A stretch of DNA of 64,000 nucleotides from Schlesneria sp. (GTDB lineage Bacteria > Planctomycetota > Planctomycetia > Planctomycetales > Planctomycetaceae). The DNA lies in assembly GCA_028291515.1 (NCBI GenBank), contig JAQGHU010000107.1, positions 1-64,000 of the forward strand, given 5' to 3'. Position numbers and translations under genes: made by a program. The notes below the pieces were generated by a model that was not told the origin of the DNA, searched no databases, and saw nothing but the letters and a program-made list of their open reading frames with translations. Every line of letters starts with the position of its first letter. Within the stretch, counting starts at the first letter, position 1. Positions 346 to 35,159 of this stretch are shown in pieces.

Positions 346-455
346 GTCGAACGAGACAGTCAACTTGACCTGCGGCCGGTGCCGATTCAAAGTGTTGACG
401 GGTGTTAGTCGAAGGCGCGTCGTTCATCGCGAGCAAATGACCTTGGACGTATGGC
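346..455 (+). other. decayed integron attC site (relic)
   Basis: This 110-bp stretch aligns along its whole length with the attC sites at 29-34 kb. The outer left box is GTCGAAC (GCCGAAC in the array). A five-base spacer is followed by AGTCAACTTG, the shared GTTCATCGCG segment is kept, and the right end reads GCAAATGACC, TTGGAC and GTATGGC where the array has GCAAGTTACC, TTGAAC and GTTCGGC. The altered right core box makes it unlikely to recombine. It immediately precedes a small ORF, as at a cassette junction. Confidence 0.7.
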
Positions 456-27467: not shown

Positions 27468-27538
27468 TGCCCGATAGTGTAACGGTAGCACAACAGATTT
27501 TGGTTCTGTTTGTCCAGGTTCGAATCCTGGTCGGGCAA
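27468..27538 (+). tRNA. tRNA-Gln (anticodon UUG)
   Basis: A 71-nt cloverleaf: acceptor arms TGCCCGA / TCGGGCA, D-arm with AACGGTAGC, anticodon stem ACAGA / TCTGT around loop TTTTGGT (anticodon TTG at 27500-27502), and T-arm CCAGGTTCGAATCCTGG. CCA is not encoded. A hairpin terminator follows at 27585. Its 3' part is the start of the direct repeat that bounds the integron island. Confidence 0.95.
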
Positions 27539-27621
27539 CTTATGCTTGTCACCGGAAGGTGGCGGCTAGAGTGAATTAGTGAAAGGACTTGGAGCTTGTG
27601 GGCTCTGAGTCCTTTTTTGTT
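27515..27621 (+). repeat. left direct repeat of the island (tRNA-Gln 3' end plus terminator)
   Basis: 107 bp covering the T-arm and acceptor 3' strand of tRNA-Gln plus its downstream terminator. It matches 34729-34835 at roughly 95 percent by eye: one G lost in the acceptor, one small indel and two substitutions in the terminator hairpin. Weaker similarity continues to about 27652. The two copies enclose about 7.1 kb, which contains the whole integron. Confidence 0.85.
27585..27618 (+). terminator. tRNA-Gln terminator
   Basis: GGACTTGGAGC / GGCTCTGAGTCC form a near-perfect 12-bp stem around TTGT, followed by six T. It is duplicated at 34799-34832. Confidence 0.8.
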
Positions 27622-27659
27622 ACCAATGCGAATTGAGGGCAGACATCGGGCTTGCGTGG

Positions 27660-28510
27660 CAACTGCGTCGATTGCCGTTCAGACGATATGAGACTTCCTT
27701 TCTACAGCGTCGCGATTGCATGGCTTTTACATTGAGGACGATTTGGGCGTGCCCCTGCCGCTTCGTGGGTCTTGCGAGAGATTCTTCGCAGGAAATACCC
27801 ATTGCCACGCCCACGAGATCCCCGCATTCTGCGATTTACGTGCATAAGCGTCTGGCAACTCGACACCGGGAATATTTGCCTTCCGATCCTCGATGTGAAG
27901 TTGTCTCAAGCGTTCGATATGGCTGTTCAGTACGTGGCGAAGCGATTCTGGCAGGATCGTGACACGGTCCTTGTCGCCTTTTCCACTTCGTATGATGATC
28001 GAACCCCGCACAAAATCGACATCTTTGACACGCAGACGGATGCATTCCATCAACCGCATCCCGGTGCCGTAGAGCAGACGAGCCATTAGTCCGTATGTGC
28101 CGTCTAAATGCGCTAACATTCGCTGCACTTCATCCGTCGTCAACACTGTCGGCAGCCGCCTCGATTCCTTGGCCTTGTGATAGGCTCCAAACTGTCCGAG
28201 ATCCTGCTTTACGACCGCCCGGTACATGAAAACAATCGCGTTGAGTGCTTGGTTTTGCGTCGACGCGGCGACTCCACGATTTCGAGCCAGGTGCGTGAGA
28301 AACGCTTCAATCTCCTGCTCGCCCATTTCCTTGGGGTGTCGCTTATTGTGAAACAGAATGAACCGCTTCGCCCAGGAGACATAGGCTTGCTCCGTGCGAT
28401 AGGACAAGCGCTTGAGCCGACAGTTGATCGAGGAACTTGGGAGCCTGGGGATTTCCGGTCGAGTGACTCGTTTTTGGCGTTTCCGCTTTTCGAGGGTCAA
28501 ACTGCGGCAT
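27660..28510 (-). pseudogene. intI: integron integrase intI, disrupted at both ends
   Basis: The central part is unmistakably IntI: LSYRTEQAYVSWAKRFILFH, VAASTQNQALNAIVFMYRAV, the first catalytic Arg in LLYGTGMRLMECIRLRVKDV, the Lys in RSGKGDKDRV, and the IntI-specific extra helix from LHIEDRKANIPGVELPDAYA to GISWAWQWVFPAKNLSQDPR. The proper N-terminus MPQFDPRKAETP to APKFLDQL lies in another frame from ATG 28510, so a frameshift falls near 28416. After DPRSG the frame ends at 27727, with only faint IntI-like residues in another frame (VLNVKAMQ). The HxFRH, GH and Tyr boxes are absent. The left direct repeat begins where the gene fades. An ORF extension to 28896 is spurious because it runs through attI and cassette 1. 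Confidence 0.88.
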
Positions 28511-28591
28511 ATGATGGGCTCCAGTGCGGCATATGACGGGAATTCAGTTGCCGATTCGGCGTAACATATTACGCAGTATGATCCATAAAAG

Positions 28592-28665
28592 TTGACAAAT
28601 ACATCATATACCGTAAAAGTTCGGTAATGTTTTACCGCACTTCGGCGGTCTAATACCTGTTCGGC
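28592..28665 (+). promoter_or_regulatory. attI-like site and possible cassette promoter region
   Basis: GTTCGGC at 28659-28665 is the same core box found at the right end of the attC sites and marks the boundary of the first cassette. TTGACA at 28592 is a good -35 box but no strong -10 follows at standard spacing. The region also holds a perfect 6-bp inverted repeat (CGGTAA / TTACCG, 28622-28637) that could be an operator. I see no LexA box, unlike several proteobacterial integrons. Confidence 0.6.
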
Positions 28666-28685
28666 CACAAACATTTCTGGCAGCC

Positions 28686-29057
28686 ATGCTTTATCCCTTT
28701 GCCTCCTTACTCCCTGATCGTGCGATTGTGTTGGTAGACTGGTACACGCATGGTGAGTTTGGCCGCGGCGTCCTGTGGGCTGCATTCGAAGATTCGGCTG
28801 GCTCTCGGGCGCAAGTTTGCATCGACAATTGCGTTGATAGTTCAACTCGCGGCCGAGTCTTTGACGGGGCTCGTCATCCGCGCCACACTGACGCAACGCC
28901 TATTGAACTCGGCGACGAAATCGAAGGTCATGTCGTAGCGGCACTGTCGAGCTGGTGCGACGATCCAGCGAACTGGCACTCTCACGGTGGGCCATACTGG
29001 GATGACTTCAAAGAGATATTCATCAAGACCGTGCTGTGTATCGGCAGCCACTCATGA
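28686..29057 (+). CDS. cassette 1 hypothetical protein
   Basis: Predicted 123 aa in the first cassette position, about 20 bases after the attI core. It is soluble, Cys- and Trp-containing and His/Asp-rich (WCDDPANWHSHGGPYWDDFK), with no leader or membrane segment, and opens MLYPFASLLPDRAIVLVDWY. No convincing Shine-Dalgarno sequence is seen. I do not recognise a family. Position suggests expression from any promoter in the attI region. Confidence 0.6.
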   Translation: MLYPFASLLPDRAIVLVDWYTHGEFGRGVLWAAFEDSAGSRAQVCIDNCVDSSTRGRVFDGARHPRHTDATPIELGDEIEGHVVAALSSWCDDPANWHSHGGPYWDDFKEIFIKTVLCIGSHS

Positions 29058-29062
29058 TCCTC

Positions 29063-29170
29063 GCCGAACCAGTCGGTCAACTTGACCCGCAGTCGCTGGC
29101 GGTTCAAAGTATTGGCGTGTTGATTGGAAGCCCGTCGCTTATCGCTGGCAAGTTACCTTGAACGTTCGGC
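29063..29170 (+). other. attC site 1
   Basis: 108 bp. GCCGAAC, a five-base spacer, then GGTCAACTTG at the left; CAAGTTACC, TTGAAC, GTTCGGC at the right. The L boxes pair as GGT(C)AACTTG / CAAGTTACC with one extrahelical C, the orientation feature of attC hairpins. It begins six bases after the cassette 1 stop. Confidence 0.9.
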
Positions 29171-29189
29171 TTCATAGGGTGAGAATGCG

Positions 29190-29723
29190 ATGGGGCGAGT
29201 CAGCGAGCTTGTCTCCGAGTACACCGCACTGATCCACCCGTGCCGGAGTACCGATTACGCCGCATATGCGCGCGAGACATCTGAAACATTCCAAAGTTTT
29301 CGCGCTGCGATCGGCGGCCTGGAAGATATCGAGGACGAGATCGTGCAAGGGCTCAGCGGTCTCCGTTTCAATCGCGAATGGCGCGACGTGATGTTGTGGC
29401 TTATCGCTGCCGACGAATGCGCCACTTCTTCCCTTGTCCGCCCGCTTTGCGACCTACTGGATATCCGGGACGAGTATGTTCAACACGAATGGATCGCAGA
29501 GACGCTCGGCGAAATTGGAAGTCCCGATGCGATTGATTCGCTTTCGAAGGCTTGCGAATTTGATCTTCCGAATGACGTATTCCGTTCGTTATCGAAGAAG
29601 TGCTTGGACTCGCTCATGGAAATCGGAACACCTGATGCCATTGCGGAGATCAGGTCACATCTTTCATCTCCGTGGATTGCAGTAAGTGAATACGCGAAAG
29701 AGTTGCTCGACGAGGCCACGTAA
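29190..29723 (+). CDS. cassette 2 HEAT-repeat-like protein
   Basis: Predicted 177 aa. All-helical, with at least two HEAT-like repeats in the C-terminal half: WIAETLGEIGSPDAIDSLSK and CLDSLMEIGTPDAIAEIRSH, each with the GSPDAI/GTPDAI turn. The N-terminal half (TALIHPCRSTDYAAYARETS) is also helical. It is probably a protein-interaction scaffold of the immunity or PBS-lyase/HEAT type; no enzymatic residues are seen. GGGTGAGA upstream serves as the ribosome-binding site. Confidence 0.8.
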   Translation: MGRVSELVSEYTALIHPCRSTDYAAYARETSETFQSFRAAIGGLEDIEDEIVQGLSGLRFNREWRDVMLWLIAADECATSSLVRPLCDLLDIRDEYVQHEWIAETLGEIGSPDAIDSLSKACEFDLPNDVFRSLSKKCLDSLMEIGTPDAIAEIRSHLSSPWIAVSEYAKELLDEAT

Positions 29724-29725
29724 TC

Positions 29726-29833
29726 GCCGAACGAGGCGGTCAACTTGACCCGCGATCGCTGGTGGCTCAAAGTATCGGCGTGTTGATCGGAAGCCCGGCG
29801 TTCATCGCGTGCAAGTGACCTTGAACGTTCGGC
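29726..29833 (+). other. attC site 2
   Basis: 108 bp, same type as attC 1 (GCCGAAC ... GGTCAACTTG ... CAAGTGACC ... GTTCGGC). The right L box has one substitution, CAAGTGACC for CAAGTTACC. It starts three bases after the cassette 2 stop. Confidence 0.9.
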
Positions 29834-29845
29834 TGGCATATTTCC

Positions 29846-30163
29846 ATGGGCGTCCATTTTCATGTGCAACGCCGCGGAGCTCCCAGCGGTGAACTCTATA
29901 ATGTCTCCGGTCGGTCTGGTTGGGAGACGCATTGGCTAGTCGGTGCTCGCGAGTTGGGGCTTGTCATCGTGCCTCACCTGGGAGATGGTGGCACATACGT
30001 TTCTTTTCCGCCCGAAGATATTCCCCAGTTGATCGCCGAACTTGAATTGCTTCGAGCATGGTTCGAGGGCCGGGAATATGATCTGTACTTGCAATTCATC
30101 GACCGCATCATCCGGGTTTTCGACGAAACGGATCCCGCGGAGTTTGAATATGGCTTCGGCTAA
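29846..30163 (+). CDS. cassette 3 hypothetical protein
   Basis: Predicted 105 aa. It opens MGVHFHVQRRGAPSGELYNV, followed by a short beta-rich segment and a helical C-terminus (EDIPQLIAELELLRAWFEGR). Acidic and soluble, with no leader. I do not recognise the family. It starts about 13 bases after attC 2, as normal for a cassette gene. Confidence 0.7.
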   Translation: MGVHFHVQRRGAPSGELYNVSGRSGWETHWLVGARELGLVIVPHLGDGGTYVSFPPEDIPQLIAELELLRAWFEGREYDLYLQFIDRIIRVFDETDPAEFEYGFG

Positions 30164-30234
30164 GGGAGTCGTGCTTGGTGTGGTCAGCGACTAATGTGTA
30201 TATCGATGATTAATTGGAAATCGCGGTCAACAAC

Positions 30235-30342
30235 GCCGAACCACTCGGTCAACTTGACCCGCGGTAGCTGGCGGTTCAGAGTGTTAGCGTGTTGTTTGGA
30301 AGCCCGTTGTTCATCGCGGGCAAGTTACCTTCAACGTTCGGC
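30235..30342 (+). other. attC site 3
   Basis: 108 bp, same type (GCCGAAC, GGTCAACTTG, CAAGTTACC, GTTCGGC). It lies 72 bases after the cassette 3 stop. Confidence 0.9.
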
Positions 30343-30403
30343 CGGGAGAATTCGGAGGCTGGGATTTCCCTGTCCCCTTTTTCGTCCCGCGATCTGTTTG
30401 ATT

Positions 30404-31999
30404 TCACCGCCATTTGGGGCGAGACCACATTCCCGGGCCGAGTTTCAATGGCTTGACCTCGTATGATTTCATGTCGATCAGGCACGGCTGTGGCCCAGCG
30501 GTCTTGGAAAACTTGATCATGATCAGCCGTCCGTCGGGCGATGCGGATGCAAAGCCGAAGCCTTTGAAGCCGTTGCCGAACACCTGGATGTCTTTTCCGT
30601 CCAGATCACAGGTCTTGAACTGGCGCGCCTCGTCGTCGTCATCCTCAAACAGGATCCGCTGCTGTTGAGGCAACACTTCGGGAAATCGACCGCGACAAAG
30701 TTTTGTGACTTTGCCGTCCAACGTGACCTTGCAGATGAATGCAACTTCCGAATTGTCCGGCCCCGGTTCGCGGACCATGCAGATCAACGAATCTCCCCGC
30801 GGATGCCAGTTCAACATCGCGAGATCCATCGGAGAACCCACGGGCTTGGATTCTCTCGACTTCAAGTCGATGACGTGGATCTGCGACTTCAACCCCTCGC
30901 CAGCCCCAACCTGAACAGCAGCTAGGACGTCACCGGAAGGGGAGACCACAGAATTGAACCAGTTGCCGCGGTCCAAGACGCCGTCGCCGACGCGCTGGCA
31001 TTCTGCCGAGGCAAGTTCGATCGAAAACAGGCCGAGGTTGGCGGAAGCCGGGTCGAGACCTGAGATGTAGATCCGCGAGCGGTCTGGCGAGAAGCACCCG
31101 CTAAGTGCCGCGCCGAATGGAATCGGCGCTCTTCGGATTTCTTGTGTGCGCAGATTCACCAGCATCACATCCGAGTCGCCGGTGGGTTGACCGGGTCGCC
31201 ACATCGGGTTATGAGAAATCTGAATCAGATCTTTCAAATCGTCGGGCGAAAACGGTTTGGTGTGATCCTCCCATTTTCCGACCGGTTCAAGAGCCGGTGG
31301 TTTGACGTCACCCAGCCAGACCAGCGGACTGAACGTCGTCTTTCGTGGCGGGATCCCGGTTTCCAGAATCTGTCCGCTCGCTCGATCCACAATCACGGTG
31401 CGGCCTTTGGTCACCGCGTCGTTAAGGTTGTCCAGTATCTCCTGAGCTTTCGGGACGTCCTTTCCAGTGTTCACCAATGTCGCCCGCAGTTCGTTCATCT
31501 TAGCGATGGCCATGCGAGCGTTTTGTTCCTGCGCGGGATCGAGCGGCAACCGCCCCACCAGGTGATTGTCCTGAATTCGTTCCACACGCATGCGATTCTC
31601 GGTCACGTTATCGTCAATCAATTGCAACTGACCGAATCCCATGAACAAGATGCCATTGGGAAGCGGCAGGCAGGCTTCGTACGGACGATACTTCCGTTTC
31701 GAAAATCCGTCATCGACATACCATGCATCGGCATGGCGCAGGATTGTCGCAATCCTGCTGCTGCGTCCACCCGTGATCACCTTCAATTCAAACAGCGACG
31801 CTTCCGAGTTCTGTAGAACAACCACTTCGATGACTGGACCATTTCCGGCGTCGTACTTCATTCCCCACTGAGCGGCTTCCCGCTGCATCCGCACGCGCGT
31901 CACTGTCGACGCTTCGAGGGCTTGGATGATGTCAGAATCGGCGGGCTTTGGATCCGCTCCGAAAACCAGCAAGGCAATGCATAGCAGCACATTCATCAT
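30404..31999 (-). CDS. cassette 4: secreted WD40/TolB-like beta-propeller protein, reversed in its cassette
   Basis: Predicted 531 aa from ATG 31999, with GGAG five bases upstream; a TTG at 32008 only extends the ORF. A short signal peptide (MMNVLLCIALLVFGADP) precedes an N-terminal domain (to about 250) with low recognisability. The C-terminal half is a beta-propeller with TolB/PD40-like blades: PDRSRIYISGLDPAS, WFNSVVSPSGDVLAAVQVGA, LNWHPRGDSLICMVRE, FASASPDGRLIMIKF. It lies between attC 3 and attC 4 but on the opposite strand from all other cassette genes, and at 1.6 kb it is large for a cassette. It must carry its own promoter. Composition and export signal resemble planctomycete host genes. 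Confidence 0.85.
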   Translation of the reverse strand: MMNVLLCIALLVFGADPKPADSDIIQALEASTVTRVRMQREAAQWGMKYDAGNGPVIEVVVLQNSEASLFELKVITGGRSSRIATILRHADAWYVDDGFSKRKYRPYEACLPLPNGILFMGFGQLQLIDDNVTENRMRVERIQDNHLVGRLPLDPAQEQNARMAIAKMNELRATLVNTGKDVPKAQEILDNLNDAVTKGRTVIVDRASGQILETGIPPRKTTFSPLVWLGDVKPPALEPVGKWEDHTKPFSPDDLKDLIQISHNPMWRPGQPTGDSDVMLVNLRTQEIRRAPIPFGAALSGCFSPDRSRIYISGLDPASANLGLFSIELASAECQRVGDGVLDRGNWFNSVVSPSGDVLAAVQVGAGEGLKSQIHVIDLKSRESKPVGSPMDLAMLNWHPRGDSLICMVREPGPDNSEVAFICKVTLDGKVTKLCRGRFPEVLPQQQRILFEDDDDEARQFKTCDLDGKDIQVFGNGFKGFGFASASPDGRLIMIKFSKTAGPQPCLIDMKSYEVKPLKLGPGMWSRPKWR

Positions 32000-32115
32000 C
32001 GACTCCAATTCGGGCTGCGGACTCAGGCTGGCCTATCCGGGATGGGAACTCGCAAGATGACCAGGACTTGATCATCCCGATTTGCCGGCACCAATTCCAG
32101 TTGATGCCATTCAGG

Positions 32116-32223
32116 GCCGAACCATGCGGTCAACTTGACCCGCAGTCGCTGGCGGTTCACAGTGTTGGTGAGTTAATTGGATGTCCGTTGTTGATCGCGG
32201 GCAAGTTACCTGAAACGTTCGGC
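32116..32223 (+). other. attC site 4
   Basis: 108 bp, same type. It lies 117 bases beyond the start codon of the reversed cassette 4 gene, so that gene's promoter must overlap or precede this attC. Confidence 0.9.
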
Positions 32224-32291
32224 TGGGCGAGTCTTGAAGCGCTTGACGTTCGTTGAGACGATCTTCCCAGTTAGATCTGAGGTCATTCGCG

Positions 32292-32630
32292 ATGGGTGCT
32301 GATTCGTTTCATGCTTTTTATGCGATCAAGATCCCCATCGACCCGAACGATGAGGAGGCCTTAACGGCGTTCGAGGAGGAAACCAATCCTCTGTTTAAGA
32401 CTGCACAACGCGTCGGTCTTCACACGTATGTTGATCGCATGACCGACGGAGAGGATTACTTCTGCTACGTTGGGTATCCAATCGGGTCTCTTGGCCTTGA
32501 GTACGAGACGCATGTAGAGATGTCCGTCGACGAACTCGTTGAGCTTGCATCTGAAGTTCGGCAAAAGCTCGAACAAGGTGGGTTCGAGGGCGTGCCGACC
32601 ATTCACTTTCAGCTCATCGCCCAGTATTAG
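32292..32630 (+). CDS. cassette 5 hypothetical protein
   Basis: Predicted 112 aa from ATG 32292 (GAGG about nine bases upstream); the ORF is open to a TTG at 32253. Acidic and soluble: MGADSFHAFYAIKIPIDPND, then FCYVGYPIGSLGLEYETHVE and a helical SVDELVELASEVRQKLEQGG. The alternating strand-helix pattern suggests a small alpha/beta domain. No family is recognised. Confidence 0.72.
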   Translation: MGADSFHAFYAIKIPIDPNDEEALTAFEEETNPLFKTAQRVGLHTYVDRMTDGEDYFCYVGYPIGSLGLEYETHVEMSVDELVELASEVRQKLEQGGFEGVPTIHFQLIAQY

Positions 32631-32749
32631 GCATGTGACTAGCTCAATCGCTCATACCATGTCATTTTGAAATCAGATCCAACTCCGGCGGTCAAATTTG
32701 TCGCAAAGCTCTTAGCGAACGCGGGCATGAAGGAGTGACCGAAAATGAT

Positions 32750-32857
32750 GCCGAACGAAGTGGTCAACTTGACCCGCAGTCGCTGGTGGTTCAAAGTGTT
32801 GGCATGTTGATTGGAAGCCCGTTTTTCATCGCGGGCAAGTTACCTTGAACGTTCGCC
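32750..32857 (+). other. attC site 5
   Basis: 108 bp, same type at the left (GCCGAAC, GGTCAACTTG) but with right core GTTCGCC instead of GTTCGGC. The last six bases of an attC belong to the next cassette, and the next attC indeed begins with the matching GGCGAAC. Confidence 0.9.
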
Positions 32858-32878
32858 TCAAGAGAAATGGGCTCGTGC

Positions 32879-33415
32879 ATGCCAGAATACGCGGATGTCT
32901 ACGCGATAGGCGGAGAACGGGCAGAGCGAGCGATAACAGGATTCCTCGACTGCTTTCTTCCGTCACGCGCGGAATCCGCAGATGAGTATGAAATTCCGCA
33001 GTATTCCAATTCACCGACCATCGTCTACAGGAAGGCTTCAGATTTAATTCGTCACTGCTGTACAAATCAGGAAGAAGTTCATGCGATCTACTGGCGAAGC
33101 AATGAGCAGCCAGAGCACGCAATGGTTTTCTTCCTCGCTGATGGTGGCGTGATTCTGGGTATTTCAACACCTGCGGGGAATTCAGAACGTGTGGATGAAA
33201 TTGCAAGTGACTTAGAACGGTACATCGGCAGCGACAACATCTTCATTACTTATGAAGATACTCCACCTGAATCAACCCAGGAGTTCTACGCCCTCCTGAA
33301 TAGCCTTGACTCAGACCCGGATGAACTTGCGCGAGAAACTAGAGTACACAGACGAATCAGAGGCGAACAAAGCGGTCAACCGGAATCGCCGATCACGCCG
33401 GATTTCAAATCATAG
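32879..33415 (+). CDS. cassette 6 hypothetical protein
   Basis: Predicted 178 aa from ATG 32879, giving MPEYADVYAIGGERAERAIT; ATG 32867 is a possible earlier start. Soluble alpha/beta protein with FLPSRAESADEYEIPQYSNS, VHAIYWRSNEQPEHAMVFFL and a C-terminal EDTPPESTQEFYALLNSL. I recall similar small proteins in varied bacteria but no function. Its last codons run into attC 6 (stop at 33415), so the attC partly encodes the protein tail. Confidence 0.75.
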   Translation: MPEYADVYAIGGERAERAITGFLDCFLPSRAESADEYEIPQYSNSPTIVYRKASDLIRHCCTNQEEVHAIYWRSNEQPEHAMVFFLADGGVILGISTPAGNSERVDEIASDLERYIGSDNIFITYEDTPPESTQEFYALLNSLDSDPDELARETRVHRRIRGEQSGQPESPITPDFKS

Positions 33416-33452
33416 TTTCTTGGCGGTGGCCCGGTTACCGCCGTCGTTCGGC
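33362..33452 (+). other. attC site 6 (different sequence lineage)
   Basis: 91 bp: GGCGAAC, five-base spacer, GGTCAACCGG ... CCGGTTACC, six-base spacer, GTTCGGC. The L boxes pair with the extrahelical C in the same position as the other sites, but the sequence differs (ACCGG for ACTTG) and the central segment is unrelated. It overlaps the 3' end of the cassette 6 gene. Confidence 0.85.
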
Positions 33453-33562
33453 GGAAAAGCCCACTATTCAAAAATTGGTCTCTAAAGCCCGCGAATCAAG
33501 AGTTGTCATTTCGGAACGGTAGCAGCGTGTCGAAGTAGTTTCGACTGCAATTGTGGTGGCAT

Positions 33563-33886
33563 ATGGCTCAGTGGCGCGGACAGTATAGCGGCCTGACACA
33601 CTACTCGAAATTGGAAGTTGCGGAGGCCGCTCTCCGAACTTCGGTAGCAAGCTATCAAGCAGCGATCCCACCTGAGGCATCAGCATCAGCAGAGATCAAA
33701 GACATTCGACGCTTGGCTACTCGTGTACGCGATCTCCGCTTGAAGCTGCTTAGGGCAGAACGCAATAAGTGCGGTCCGATGCATCCGTCGAGAGAAAAAG
33801 CGATGGAGGAGGCGGAAGGGGCTGTGGCTCTGGCGGGGACAAACGGCATACTGATCGAGTTTGGAGTGGCCGAGGCATGTGATTAA
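33563..33886 (+). CDS. cassette 7 hypothetical helical protein
   Basis: Predicted 107 aa from ATG 33563 (the ORF is open to a TTG at 33551). Ala/Arg/Glu-rich and mainly helical: LEVAEAALRTSVASYQAAIP and RRLATRVRDLRLKLLRAERN, then PSREKAMEEAEGAVALAGTN. It could form a short coiled coil. No family is recognised. Confidence 0.6.
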   Translation: MAQWRGQYSGLTHYSKLEVAEAALRTSVASYQAAIPPEASASAEIKDIRRLATRVRDLRLKLLRAERNKCGPMHPSREKAMEEAEGAVALAGTNGILIEFGVAEACD

Positions 33887-33889
33887 ATC

Positions 33890-33998
33890 GCCGAACGAGT
33901 TGGTCAACTTGACCCGCCGTCGCCGGTGACTCAAAGTGTTGGCGTGTTAATCGCAATGCCCGTCGTCGATCGCGGGCAAGTTACCTTAAACGTTCGGC
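33890..33998 (+). other. attC site 7
   Basis: 109 bp, main type (GCCGAAC, GGTCAACTTG, CAAGTTACC, GTTCGGC). It starts four bases after the cassette 7 stop. Confidence 0.9.
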
Positions 33999-34010
33999 GA
34001 CTTCACCCAC

Positions 34011-34457
34011 ATGGAACTTTTGGGCTTACTATTCGCAGTCCCTGTCACGCTGTTGACAAGCACGGCGTTTTGCTTCCTCGCGCGGTGGGCGTTCACGCGG
34101 TGGACGTTTCTCAGGCTGATTTGCGGCGTGCTTGCTCTGCTCGTACTTCTCAGCGTTGCTATTGAGGTGTTCCTCTCGGTTCTGGTTGGCCCCTTGCAGC
34201 TTCACAATCGCTGGGGAGTCATTCATGCAGTTGTCCACCACGCCAATTTTTTCCTGGCACCGCCGGCAGTGGCTTGTGCTATTTACCTGCCGTGCATCCA
34301 CGGTGACCTCCGTCGCGGGGAGCAGCGCATCTTGGCTATCGGCGCGTGTTGGTTCACGTGCATGGCTGTTGTCCTCGGCCATATCGCCGTTGATGAGGAG
34401 GATGAGGAGATTTACGGTGTGGACGGTTCAGGTGTTCCGTCGAGACAGTCACAATGA
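34011..34457 (+). CDS. cassette 8 small membrane protein
   Basis: Predicted 148 aa, with four hydrophobic segments at about residues 2-24, 33-62, 75-92 and 103-122 (for example LICGVLALLVLLSVAIEVFL). His, Cys and Arg lie between helices, and the cytosolic tail is acidic (DEEDEEIYGVDGSG). An integral membrane protein of unknown function; no transporter motif is seen. It is the last gene of the array. Confidence 0.72.
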   Translation: MELLGLLFAVPVTLLTSTAFCFLARWAFTRWTFLRLICGVLALLVLLSVAIEVFLSVLVGPLQLHNRWGVIHAVVHHANFFLAPPAVACAIYLPCIHGDLRRGEQRILAIGACWFTCMAVVLGHIAVDEEDEEIYGVDGSGVPSRQSQ

Positions 34458-34467
34458 ATAGAGAGTC

Positions 34468-34560
34468 GCCTAACTATGCGCTGCAGCGACACCGGCGGAA
34501 GCGACGTGGTTGCAATCGTTGCGCCTGATCGCCGGGTCGCTGAGCGTGGGGCGTTGCGGC
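34468..34560 (+). other. attC site 8 (third sequence lineage, right core altered)
   Basis: About 93 bp: GCCTAAC, spacer TATGC, GCTGCAGCG at the left; CGCTGAGC, spacer, GTTGCGGC at the right. The L boxes pair with one extrahelical G, and an inner stem ACCGGCG / CGCCGGG extends them. The right core has an extra base relative to the GTTRRRY pattern, so it may be inactive. The left core GCCTAAC is the type common in other bacterial integrons. Confidence 0.65.
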
Positions 34561-35159
34561 CGTACTCCGCTCCATTTGCGCTGGGGGCAAATTGAGGGCA
34601 GAATTGGCGATTCAATTCCAATTCGAGTAACATCGTATTTGCACGGCAAGAAGTCGTAACGTGCGACTTGATAGTCAGTTGCTACGCAACCGAGTGCTAA
34701 GCCCAACCCTTCCCCAGTGCCTCGAAGTCAGGTTCGAATCCTGGTCGGCAACTTTTTGCTTGTCACCGGAAGGTGGCGGCTAGAGTGAATTAGTGAAAGG
34801 ACTTAGAGCTTGTGAGCTCTGAGTCCTTTTTTGTTTTCGAACGCGGTTTGGGGCAGGCATCCATCTGTGCTTGCGAAGGCCAAAGCGATCATTGCAGACG
34901 AACGATCCGCAAGAAGCACAGATATTTGCGGATCGGATAGATCGACGATTGAACGCCGAGGATAGGGTGATCTAGTGATCACACCCGGTACTGACATTGT
35001 TGACGGCAGGAAGTCGTTGAACCCATTGCATTCTAAGGACCCAGCAGGTCCAATAAACGTGACTGGGGCAACATCCTCAGTGGTCGAAAATTCCTAGTTG
35101 GGTCAGCAGGTCGTCCGCTCGTTGTCGCAGCTTCGAAATGAATTTATGGATTTGTAAGT
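34561..35159. other. 599-bp intergenic region with right island boundary
   Basis: It holds the right direct repeat (34729-34835). A 13-base word, AATTGAGGGCAGA, at 34590 also occurs just inside the left boundary at 27631. No gene is seen; the region before 35160 should contain the promoter of the exporter operon, but no boxes are clear. Confidence 0.5.
34729..34835 (+). repeat. right direct repeat of the island (tRNA-Gln 3' fragment plus terminator)
   Basis: CAGGTTCGAATCCTGGTCGG followed by caact and the same 80-base downstream sequence as tRNA-Gln, including the terminator hairpin at 34799-34832. Only the tRNA 3' portion is present; the sequence to its left does not resemble the tRNA 5' half, so it is not a functional tRNA gene. 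Confidence 0.85.

Follow-up and report, generated by a model that had tools for sequence, protein, structure and literature searches.

Sedentary chromosomal integrons, of which the superintegron of Vibrio cholerae is an example, have an integrase gene of the intI family, an attI site from which intI diverges, and an array of cassettes with mostly unknown genes; their attC sites have R and L boxes, spacers of 5 and 6 bases, and an extrahelical G in L'' of the bottom strand. All of these features recur between positions 27,660 and 34,560 of a stretch of 64,000 nucleotides (hereafter the window) from contig JAQGHU010000107.1 of Schlesneria sp., a planctomycete. The locus differs from such integrons in that its intI is a pseudogene, the core of its attC sites reads GTTCGGC rather than GTTRRRY, and the array holds only seven attC sites, with more scattered genome-wide.

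Clusters of attC sites lacking integron-integrases (CALINs) are treated in PMC9668308, which describes them as outnumbering integrons with intI, and in PMC12444791, which includes conserved loci in Xanthomonas. As in those systems, the present genome has several attC arrays without intI, at positions that are common to related species while the cassettes change. In contrast to CALINs, several arrays here begin with a recognisable attI copy at the 5' end, with an intI remnant retained as well in the window array. An attI sequence away from its intI is likewise a feature of the Delta-attI-type cassettes of class 1 and class 2 integrons (PMC12901181); there, a short piece of attI replaces the attC behind a gene, whereas here a long attI copy precedes a whole array. 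With tRNA islands that carry phage-type tyrosine integrases, the locus shares a tRNA 3' end duplicated at both ends and a left end like that of a tRNA-Leu element in a congener (G002); unlike them, it has an integron as its cargo, and no open reading frame (ORF) for a phage-type integrase was seen in the window element. PMC8352920 has attC covariance models for 11 taxa, planctomycetes among them, and PMC3108266 includes Rhodopirellula baltica in its analysis. Integrons and CALINs of planctomycetes are already published; what is unusual here is the occurrence of attI-headed, integrase-less arrays and of different tRNA loci. The titles and opening abstract lines by which most of the searched literature was represented describe neither attI-headed CALINs nor an integron on a tRNA island in planctomycetes.

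Judged from its sequence, the region is very probably a decayed chromosomal integron, in formal terms a CALIN that also has attI and a pseudogene of intI; we call it decayed because of the pseudogene. That it was a chromosomal platform follows from the divergent intI-family gene, the attI and the array, and from a relative that has the same attI with another first cassette joined at the core. This relative (G012; the genome of the window is denoted G000, its relatives within the genus G002, G012, G013 and so on, with C for contig and L for locus) provides the strongest evidence: its copy of attI is followed by an array whose first cassette is another one, and the homology breaks off exactly at GTTCGGC. 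The two features at the head of the window array are the following.

27754-28510, minus strand: intI pseudogene (TIGR02249; comparison with the G012 copy and L176; start codon at 28510-28508 by inspection)
28502-28665, plus strand: attI region (96% copy at G012:C74; core GTTCGGC at 28659-28665; homology ends at GTTCGGC)

The intI ORF scored 287 bits against TIGR02249 (cut-off 265) over profile positions 9-231 of 315, placing it in the integron-integrase family. It lacks the catalytic C-terminus, with the HxxR and tyrosine region absent, and does not encode an intact integrase. The closest named IntI, from a metagenome-assembled genome of the Planctomycetaceae (L176; 68% identity), runs on into the HTLRHSFATH region where the window IntI stops. 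Alignment with G012 also revealed a short frame-shifting gap near the N-terminus. The window intI is a pseudogene. It was the sole TIGR02249 match over the cut-off in G000, and no intact integron integrase was found in that genome, so the array can probably not be serviced from within its own genome.

The intI gene reads divergently from attI and the cassette array. G012:C74 shares the N-terminal part of intI and the intergenic region at 93.6% identity over 439 positions, and the identity persists to the final base of GTTCGGC before the different first cassette begins. Region 28502-28665 is, on this comparison, the attI site: it lies beside intI and has a cassette junction at G|TT, the exact base of the cut within the core being an inference. 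In L176, the inner portion of this attI is preserved at 78% over 68 bases, and the core reads GTTGGGC. For as long as an integrase was active, in cis or in trans, it would have recombined attI at G|TT with the attC bottom strand in its folded form, and excision of cassettes would have taken place between adjacent attC sites.

The array comprises seven attC sites, all on the plus strand between 29063 and 33998, which delimit eight gene units. The scores below are from a covariance model (R1) built from 19 sites of G000, six of them window sites.

29063-29170, plus strand: attC 1 (repeat family; 132 bits; used in model building)
29726-29833, plus strand: attC 2 (repeat family; 120 bits; used in model building)
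30235-30342, plus strand: attC 3 (repeat family; 127.5 bits; used in model building)
32116-32223, plus strand: attC 4 (repeat family; 127 bits; used in model building)
32750-32857, plus strand: attC 5, core GTTCGCC (repeat family; 129 bits; used in model building)
33362-33452, plus strand: attC 6, short and divergent (28.8 bits; outside the model-building set)
33890-33998, plus strand: attC 7 (repeat family; 121 bits; used in model building)
346-455, plus strand: lone attC-like site, far from the array (72.4 bits; outside the model-building set)

Except for the 91-base attC 6, the array sites are 108-109 bases long. Compared with the reference copy over 115 positions, five of these six show 82-100% identity; the remaining one, attC 7, drops to 60% only because an indel disrupts the ungapped comparison. 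The outer boxes are GCCGAAC and GTTCGGC in five of the seven sites, attC 5 ending in GTTCGCC and attC 6 starting with GGCGAAC. Spacers of 5 and 6 bases are present in all seven. The L boxes read GGTCAACTTG and CAAGTTACC in five sites; attC 2 is off by one base, and attC 6 is altered on both sides with the pairing and the extra base retained. The bottom strand has one extrahelical G, plus a bulged T further in. R and L boxes, an unpaired spacer and extrahelical bases in the bottom strand are attC features described in PMC2727003, and the window sites have each of them. A scan of the window with Rfam returned no attC match, only tRNA and one weak match far below the gathering score.

Several observations weigh against identifying the region as an integron. 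In most sites, the core GTTCGGC / GCCGAAC departs at position 4 from GTTRRRY / RYYYAAC, GTTRRRY being the published attC consensus (PMC3053210). Six of the seven window sites match the covariance model by construction, since they were built into it. Folding of the bottom strands, as an earlier reading made from the letters of the window (the sequence-only reading) had suggested, gave a mixed outcome: in our reading, the intended R-L stem was the minimum-energy fold in five of the seven, stability was only moderate (z −1.4 to −3.7), and three top strands folded as a control scored only slightly lower. No covariation was seen among 19 attC sites of this genome, and RNAalifold did not recover the R-L stem from 27 mixed sites, truncated and shifted ones included. 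In favour of it, compensatory changes were found at 20 of 21 pairs in the attC sites of relatives, with a covariation score of 0.194 versus 0.097 for shuffled and at most 0.050 for slid versions, in a structure-fitted alignment of 98 rows that contains opposite-strand echo rows. The ends of the R boxes alone formed 80.1% pairs versus 75.5% when shuffled (maximum of 1000 shuffles, 78.2%) in a test on 155/156 rows, all of them model-selected and echo rows included. Further points against it are that the genomes compared are draft assemblies and that no tRNA was found near any of 12 other intI loci, with flanks covered to at most 1.5 kb in all but one.

The window array is part of a scattered set of attC arrays, some of which are headed by attI copies without intI. 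In a plain DNA search of G000, attC 1 yielded 40 matches, 75-94% alike to the query. The covariance model yielded at least 53 matches at E ≤ 0.01 on 14 contigs, 34 of them outside the model-building set; the figure is a lower bound, as scoring covered the best 150 of 3790 candidates and the matches listed do not include attC 6. Across the genus, attC matches at E ≤ 0.001 were present in 11 of 15 genomes, its own included, and none were found in the other four; full-length intI was found in 3 of the 14 other genomes (E ≤ 1e-60). A chance origin of the attC repeats was rejected on the window repeats, the DNA matches, the model matches and the distribution in the genus.

Between adjacent attC sites on one strand there are 37 units, those of the window array included; the longest ORF had the orientation of the array in 29 of them and the opposite one in four, and four had no ORF of at least 60 aa. 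This count used 53 of 58 attC matches, with three opposite-strand echoes and two fragments dropped and the pair 346/29063 not counted; the unit 32857-33362 falls among the four opposite ones only through the overlap of its 182-aa plus-strand gene with attC 6. The sequence-only reading would have been abandoned by its author had the repeats flanked non-cassette genes throughout the genome. They do occur at many loci, but these are mostly further gene-attC arrays. About 10 attC-like sites in G000 stand alone. With at least two attC sites in an array and no functional intI nearby, the arrangement is that of a CALIN.

G000 and G012 are about 86-95% alike across shared regions, in alignment tables filtered by length and partly also by identity. 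Seven G000 arrays (L039, L041, L042, L043, L044, L045 and L046) have counterparts in G012, recognised via common flanks or, for L043, via common units only. In every one of the seven pairs, some or all of the inner units are different. Many alignments end within copies of attC, whose similarity masks the exact breakpoint; the clean breakpoints are those at attI.

Copies of attI were counted at E ≤ 1e-13, which excluded four weaker matches (one attI_A and three attI_B). The attI of the window (attI_A, 164 bases) has a second copy in G000 (C102), four copies in G012 (including C74) and two in G013. The other type, attI_B, was taken from the intact integron of G012 (C188) and has further copies at G012 C129 and G000 C60. 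G012 carries two integron types: an intact IntI (L088:638-1588), about 50% identical to that of the window, and a remnant orthologous to the window's (L090:2013-2451). Three of the 11 copies (window, C74 and C188) adjoin intI or a remnant. For the other eight, searches that included a 157-residue fragment of the window IntI as a query found no adjoining intI, save a 22-residue IntI-like fragment at the G012 C147 locus. Six of these eight stand, correctly oriented, at the head of an attC array, two in G000 (C60 and C102) and four in G012; beside the two G013 copies, no clear attC array was found within the at most 1.5 kb covered on each side (none for one, one weak match for the other). The three attI_B copies diverge directly after GTT. 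Four further attI_A copies were compared: in three, divergence sets in at the GTT core or a few bases from it, and in the fourth, L092, the core itself is altered. Finally, attI_B occupies positions that the two genomes do not share: there is no attI_B match in L093, the G012 counterpart of C60, or in L045, the G000 counterpart of C129, and the likeness of L039 to L093 breaks off roughly at the start of attI_B.

The 22-residue IntI-like fragment (L091:6524-6589) lies in the first unit behind a G012 attI copy, hinting at a second, older integron remnant in G012. A non-coding sequence, conserved over about 450 bases and containing a hairpin-like inverted repeat, is present in about 23 nearly full-length copies, of which three are split, by our count from 58 matches with the best 40 of 71 candidates scored. 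In several places it lies between an outward-reading gene and an attC array, and it is possibly a regulatory repeat. Its candidacy as an integron-specific leader was rejected, only about 7 of the roughly 23 copies lying within 2 kb of an attC match. Two attI_B copies (L039:4100-4257 and L097:2947-3093) both adjoin this sequence, and their sister-species counterparts are without attI_B. A second repeat, on the 3' side of the intact G012 intI, recurs near intI-less attI copies (L092, L043 and L105), as if intI had been excised between copies of it.

G000:C109:159899-160431, C60:96540-96961, C80:181488-181979, C42:119500-119959, L041:7344-8337: examples of the non-coding repeat of about 450 bases
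L088:107-599, L092:7104-7392, L047:6286-6557, L043:11085-11216, L105:5300-5434: second repeat, near intI/attI

The genes of the eight units in the window are as follows.

28686-29057, plus strand: cassette 1 gene, 123 aa (no match in the family search)
29190-29723, plus strand: cassette 2 gene, 177 aa, HEAT repeats (PF13646/PF03130)
29846-30163, plus strand: cassette 3 gene, 105 aa (no match in the family search)
30404-32008, minus strand, antisense to the array: cassette 4 gene, 534 aa, weak TolB-propeller similarity (TIGR02800, 22 bits, far below the cut-off)
32292-32630, plus strand: cassette 5 gene, 112 aa (no match in the family search)
32867-33415, plus strand: cassette 6 gene, 182 aa, its end overlapping attC 6 (no match in the family search)
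33551-33886, plus strand: cassette 7 gene, 111 aa (no match in the family search)
34011-34457, plus strand: unit 8 gene, 148 aa, hydrophobic by inspection (from the ORF list)

Searches with Pfam, NCBIfam and PADLOC left six of the eight genes without any family at the thresholds used: Pfam matched one (the HEAT repeats), NCBIfam gave two matches far below cut-offs, and PADLOC gave none. The covariance model found no attC behind unit 8. The cassette 4 gene has a broken, shorter paralog at G000:C82 (L174:5247-6284; 87% over 1039 bases), which adjoins a partial attC.

These data bear on the remaining claims of the sequence-only reading, which had described a chromosomal integron in a planctomycete, with eight plus-strand units of gene and attC behind an attI-like site beside an IntI remnant. 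The integron was upheld, with the qualification that it is decayed and its intI a pseudogene. The attI-like site was indeed found beside the IntI remnant, with its core at 28659-28665 and the TIGR02249 match on the minus strand, and a planctomycete host agrees with the origin of the closest named IntI. There are eight units, but they come with seven attC sites, and the fourth gene reads from the minus strand. A site length of about 108 bp suits every attC but the sixth, and the outer boxes GCCGAAC/GTTCGGC apply except at 32750 and 33362. The spacers of five and six bases were described correctly, as was the single extrahelical base of the L boxes, which is the bottom-strand G. A likeness to the known attC layout was seen in the boxes, spacers and extrahelical base, and fails at position 4 of the core. 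As to gene contents, HEAT repeats were confirmed in unit 2, the propeller of unit 4 is a weak similarity, and several genes are without a family.

The region lies behind a tRNA gene, and a repeat of the 3' end of that gene follows the array.

27468-27539, plus strand: tRNA-Gln (TTG), left landmark (ARAGORN; Rfam tRNA, 66.8 bits)
27515-27647, plus strand: left direct repeat, comprising the tRNA-Gln 3' end, a terminator-like hairpin and the start of the element end (107-nt repeat family)
27583-27686, plus strand: left element end (similar to G002 and G006 sequence around the start of a phage-type integrase ORF, and to the G009 flank of tRNA-Gln)
34583-34602, plus strand: arm-like sequence near the right end (likeness to the left element end judged by eye)
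34729-34861, plus strand: right direct repeat, comprising a partial tRNA-Gln 3' end, a terminator-like hairpin and the element end (direct-repeat comparison)

The left and right repeats are 93% identical over 107 nt, extending to 133 nt at 90%. The tRNA 3' end is thus duplicated at both ends, as in tRNA-associated integrative elements; such an element's own phage-type integrase was not found among the window ORFs between the repeats. In 12 of 13 matches in relatives, homology ends within 3 bases of the tRNA end; in G009, it continues to 27677. The left end (27583-27686) is 70.7% identical over 116 bases to the start region of a 432-aa phage-type integrase ORF (L125/L126), which lies beside tRNA-Leu in G002 and for which no tRNA was found in G006. 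It is also 78% identical over 107 bases to the tRNA-Gln flank of G009. In G012 and G013, other phage-type integrases are neighbours of this tRNA-Gln, and in G003 a second partial tRNA 3' end lies about 16.5 kb away; tRNA-Gln thus seems to be a hot spot for insertion across the genus (loci L172:3161-4267, L124:208-1536 and L127/L128). The orthologous platform of G012 sits behind tRNA-Ala, and the same tRNA-Ala site in G000 is without a platform. An empty tRNA-Gln site was not found; the G012 flanks are split between two contigs (C147 and C47).

From these likenesses, the platform probably lies in what is left of a tRNA-targeted integrative element after the loss of its integrase gene. Less certainly than the recombination at attI, the history would have the platform inside such a remnant at the tRNA-Gln 3' end and a single loss removing both the element's own integrase and the end of intI. 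Alternatively, the tRNA-Gln flanks could be coincidental, the 107-133 bp repeat being a duplicated tRNA end and the integron having been placed by ordinary rearrangement. We consider this a realistic possibility, albeit the lesser one. It accords with the lack of a phage-type integrase ORF between the repeats, with the location of the right flank of G012 (from 35009) on contig C47, away from the tRNA-Gln on C147, and with the lack of tRNAs near the other intI loci. It does not predict that homology to relatives stops so close to the tRNA end in all matches but that of G009, that the left end resembles the start region of a phage-type integrase ORF, or that phage-type integrases lie beside the same tRNA-Gln in G012 and G013.

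Insertion of cassettes at secondary, non-classical sites (attG) is a described process. The arrays could have arisen in this way through an integrase acting in trans, with no separate platforms, an explanation that we hold to be possible without favouring it. It would suit the observations that only one G000 array adjoins an intI-family match over the cut-off and that attC-like sites stand alone, and attG insertion is already in the literature, being discussed in PMC12444791 and PMC12901181 and cited in the reference list of PMC11023631. However, the window array has attI and an intI remnant, and the right-way attI copies that head two other G000 arrays (C60 and C102) and four in G012 are not predicted by attG insertion; for arrays without attI, it may still apply. 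A very improbable explanation is an unrelated family of interspersed repeats, in the form of a mobile palindromic element with a mere resemblance to attC. The repeats are dispersed over 14 contigs at 75-94% likeness to the query, as such a family might be, and another non-coding repeat family is also dispersed in the same genome. Mimicry would not explain why the repeats have one orientation per cluster and mostly alternate with ORFs, why they accompany attI and an IntI-family gene, why differences between relatives fall at the predicted cut, or why 4 of 15 genomes of the genus have no match. It was rejected on the orientation, the link to attI and the breakpoints at the core. A broader proposal is that the genus carries a distributed integron, with many attI docking sites of two types that each head their own array, one or a transient integrase acting in trans, and platforms shifting between tRNA genes on integrative elements; this genome would then be a stage with docking sites left and the last integrase dead. 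We regard the proposal as speculative and rather unlikely in this full form.

Taken as a decayed integron in the probable remnant of a tRNA-targeted element, the locus suggests a route by which a 'sedentary' platform can move. The origin of CALINs matters for integron evolution: with attI heading several integrase-less arrays, part of the CALINs may derive from former or satellite platforms rather than from random cassette insertion. Arrays of this kind merit a survey in the CALINs of the group. The common array positions of G000 and G012, moreover, make cassette gain and loss readable per base in an environmental lineage.

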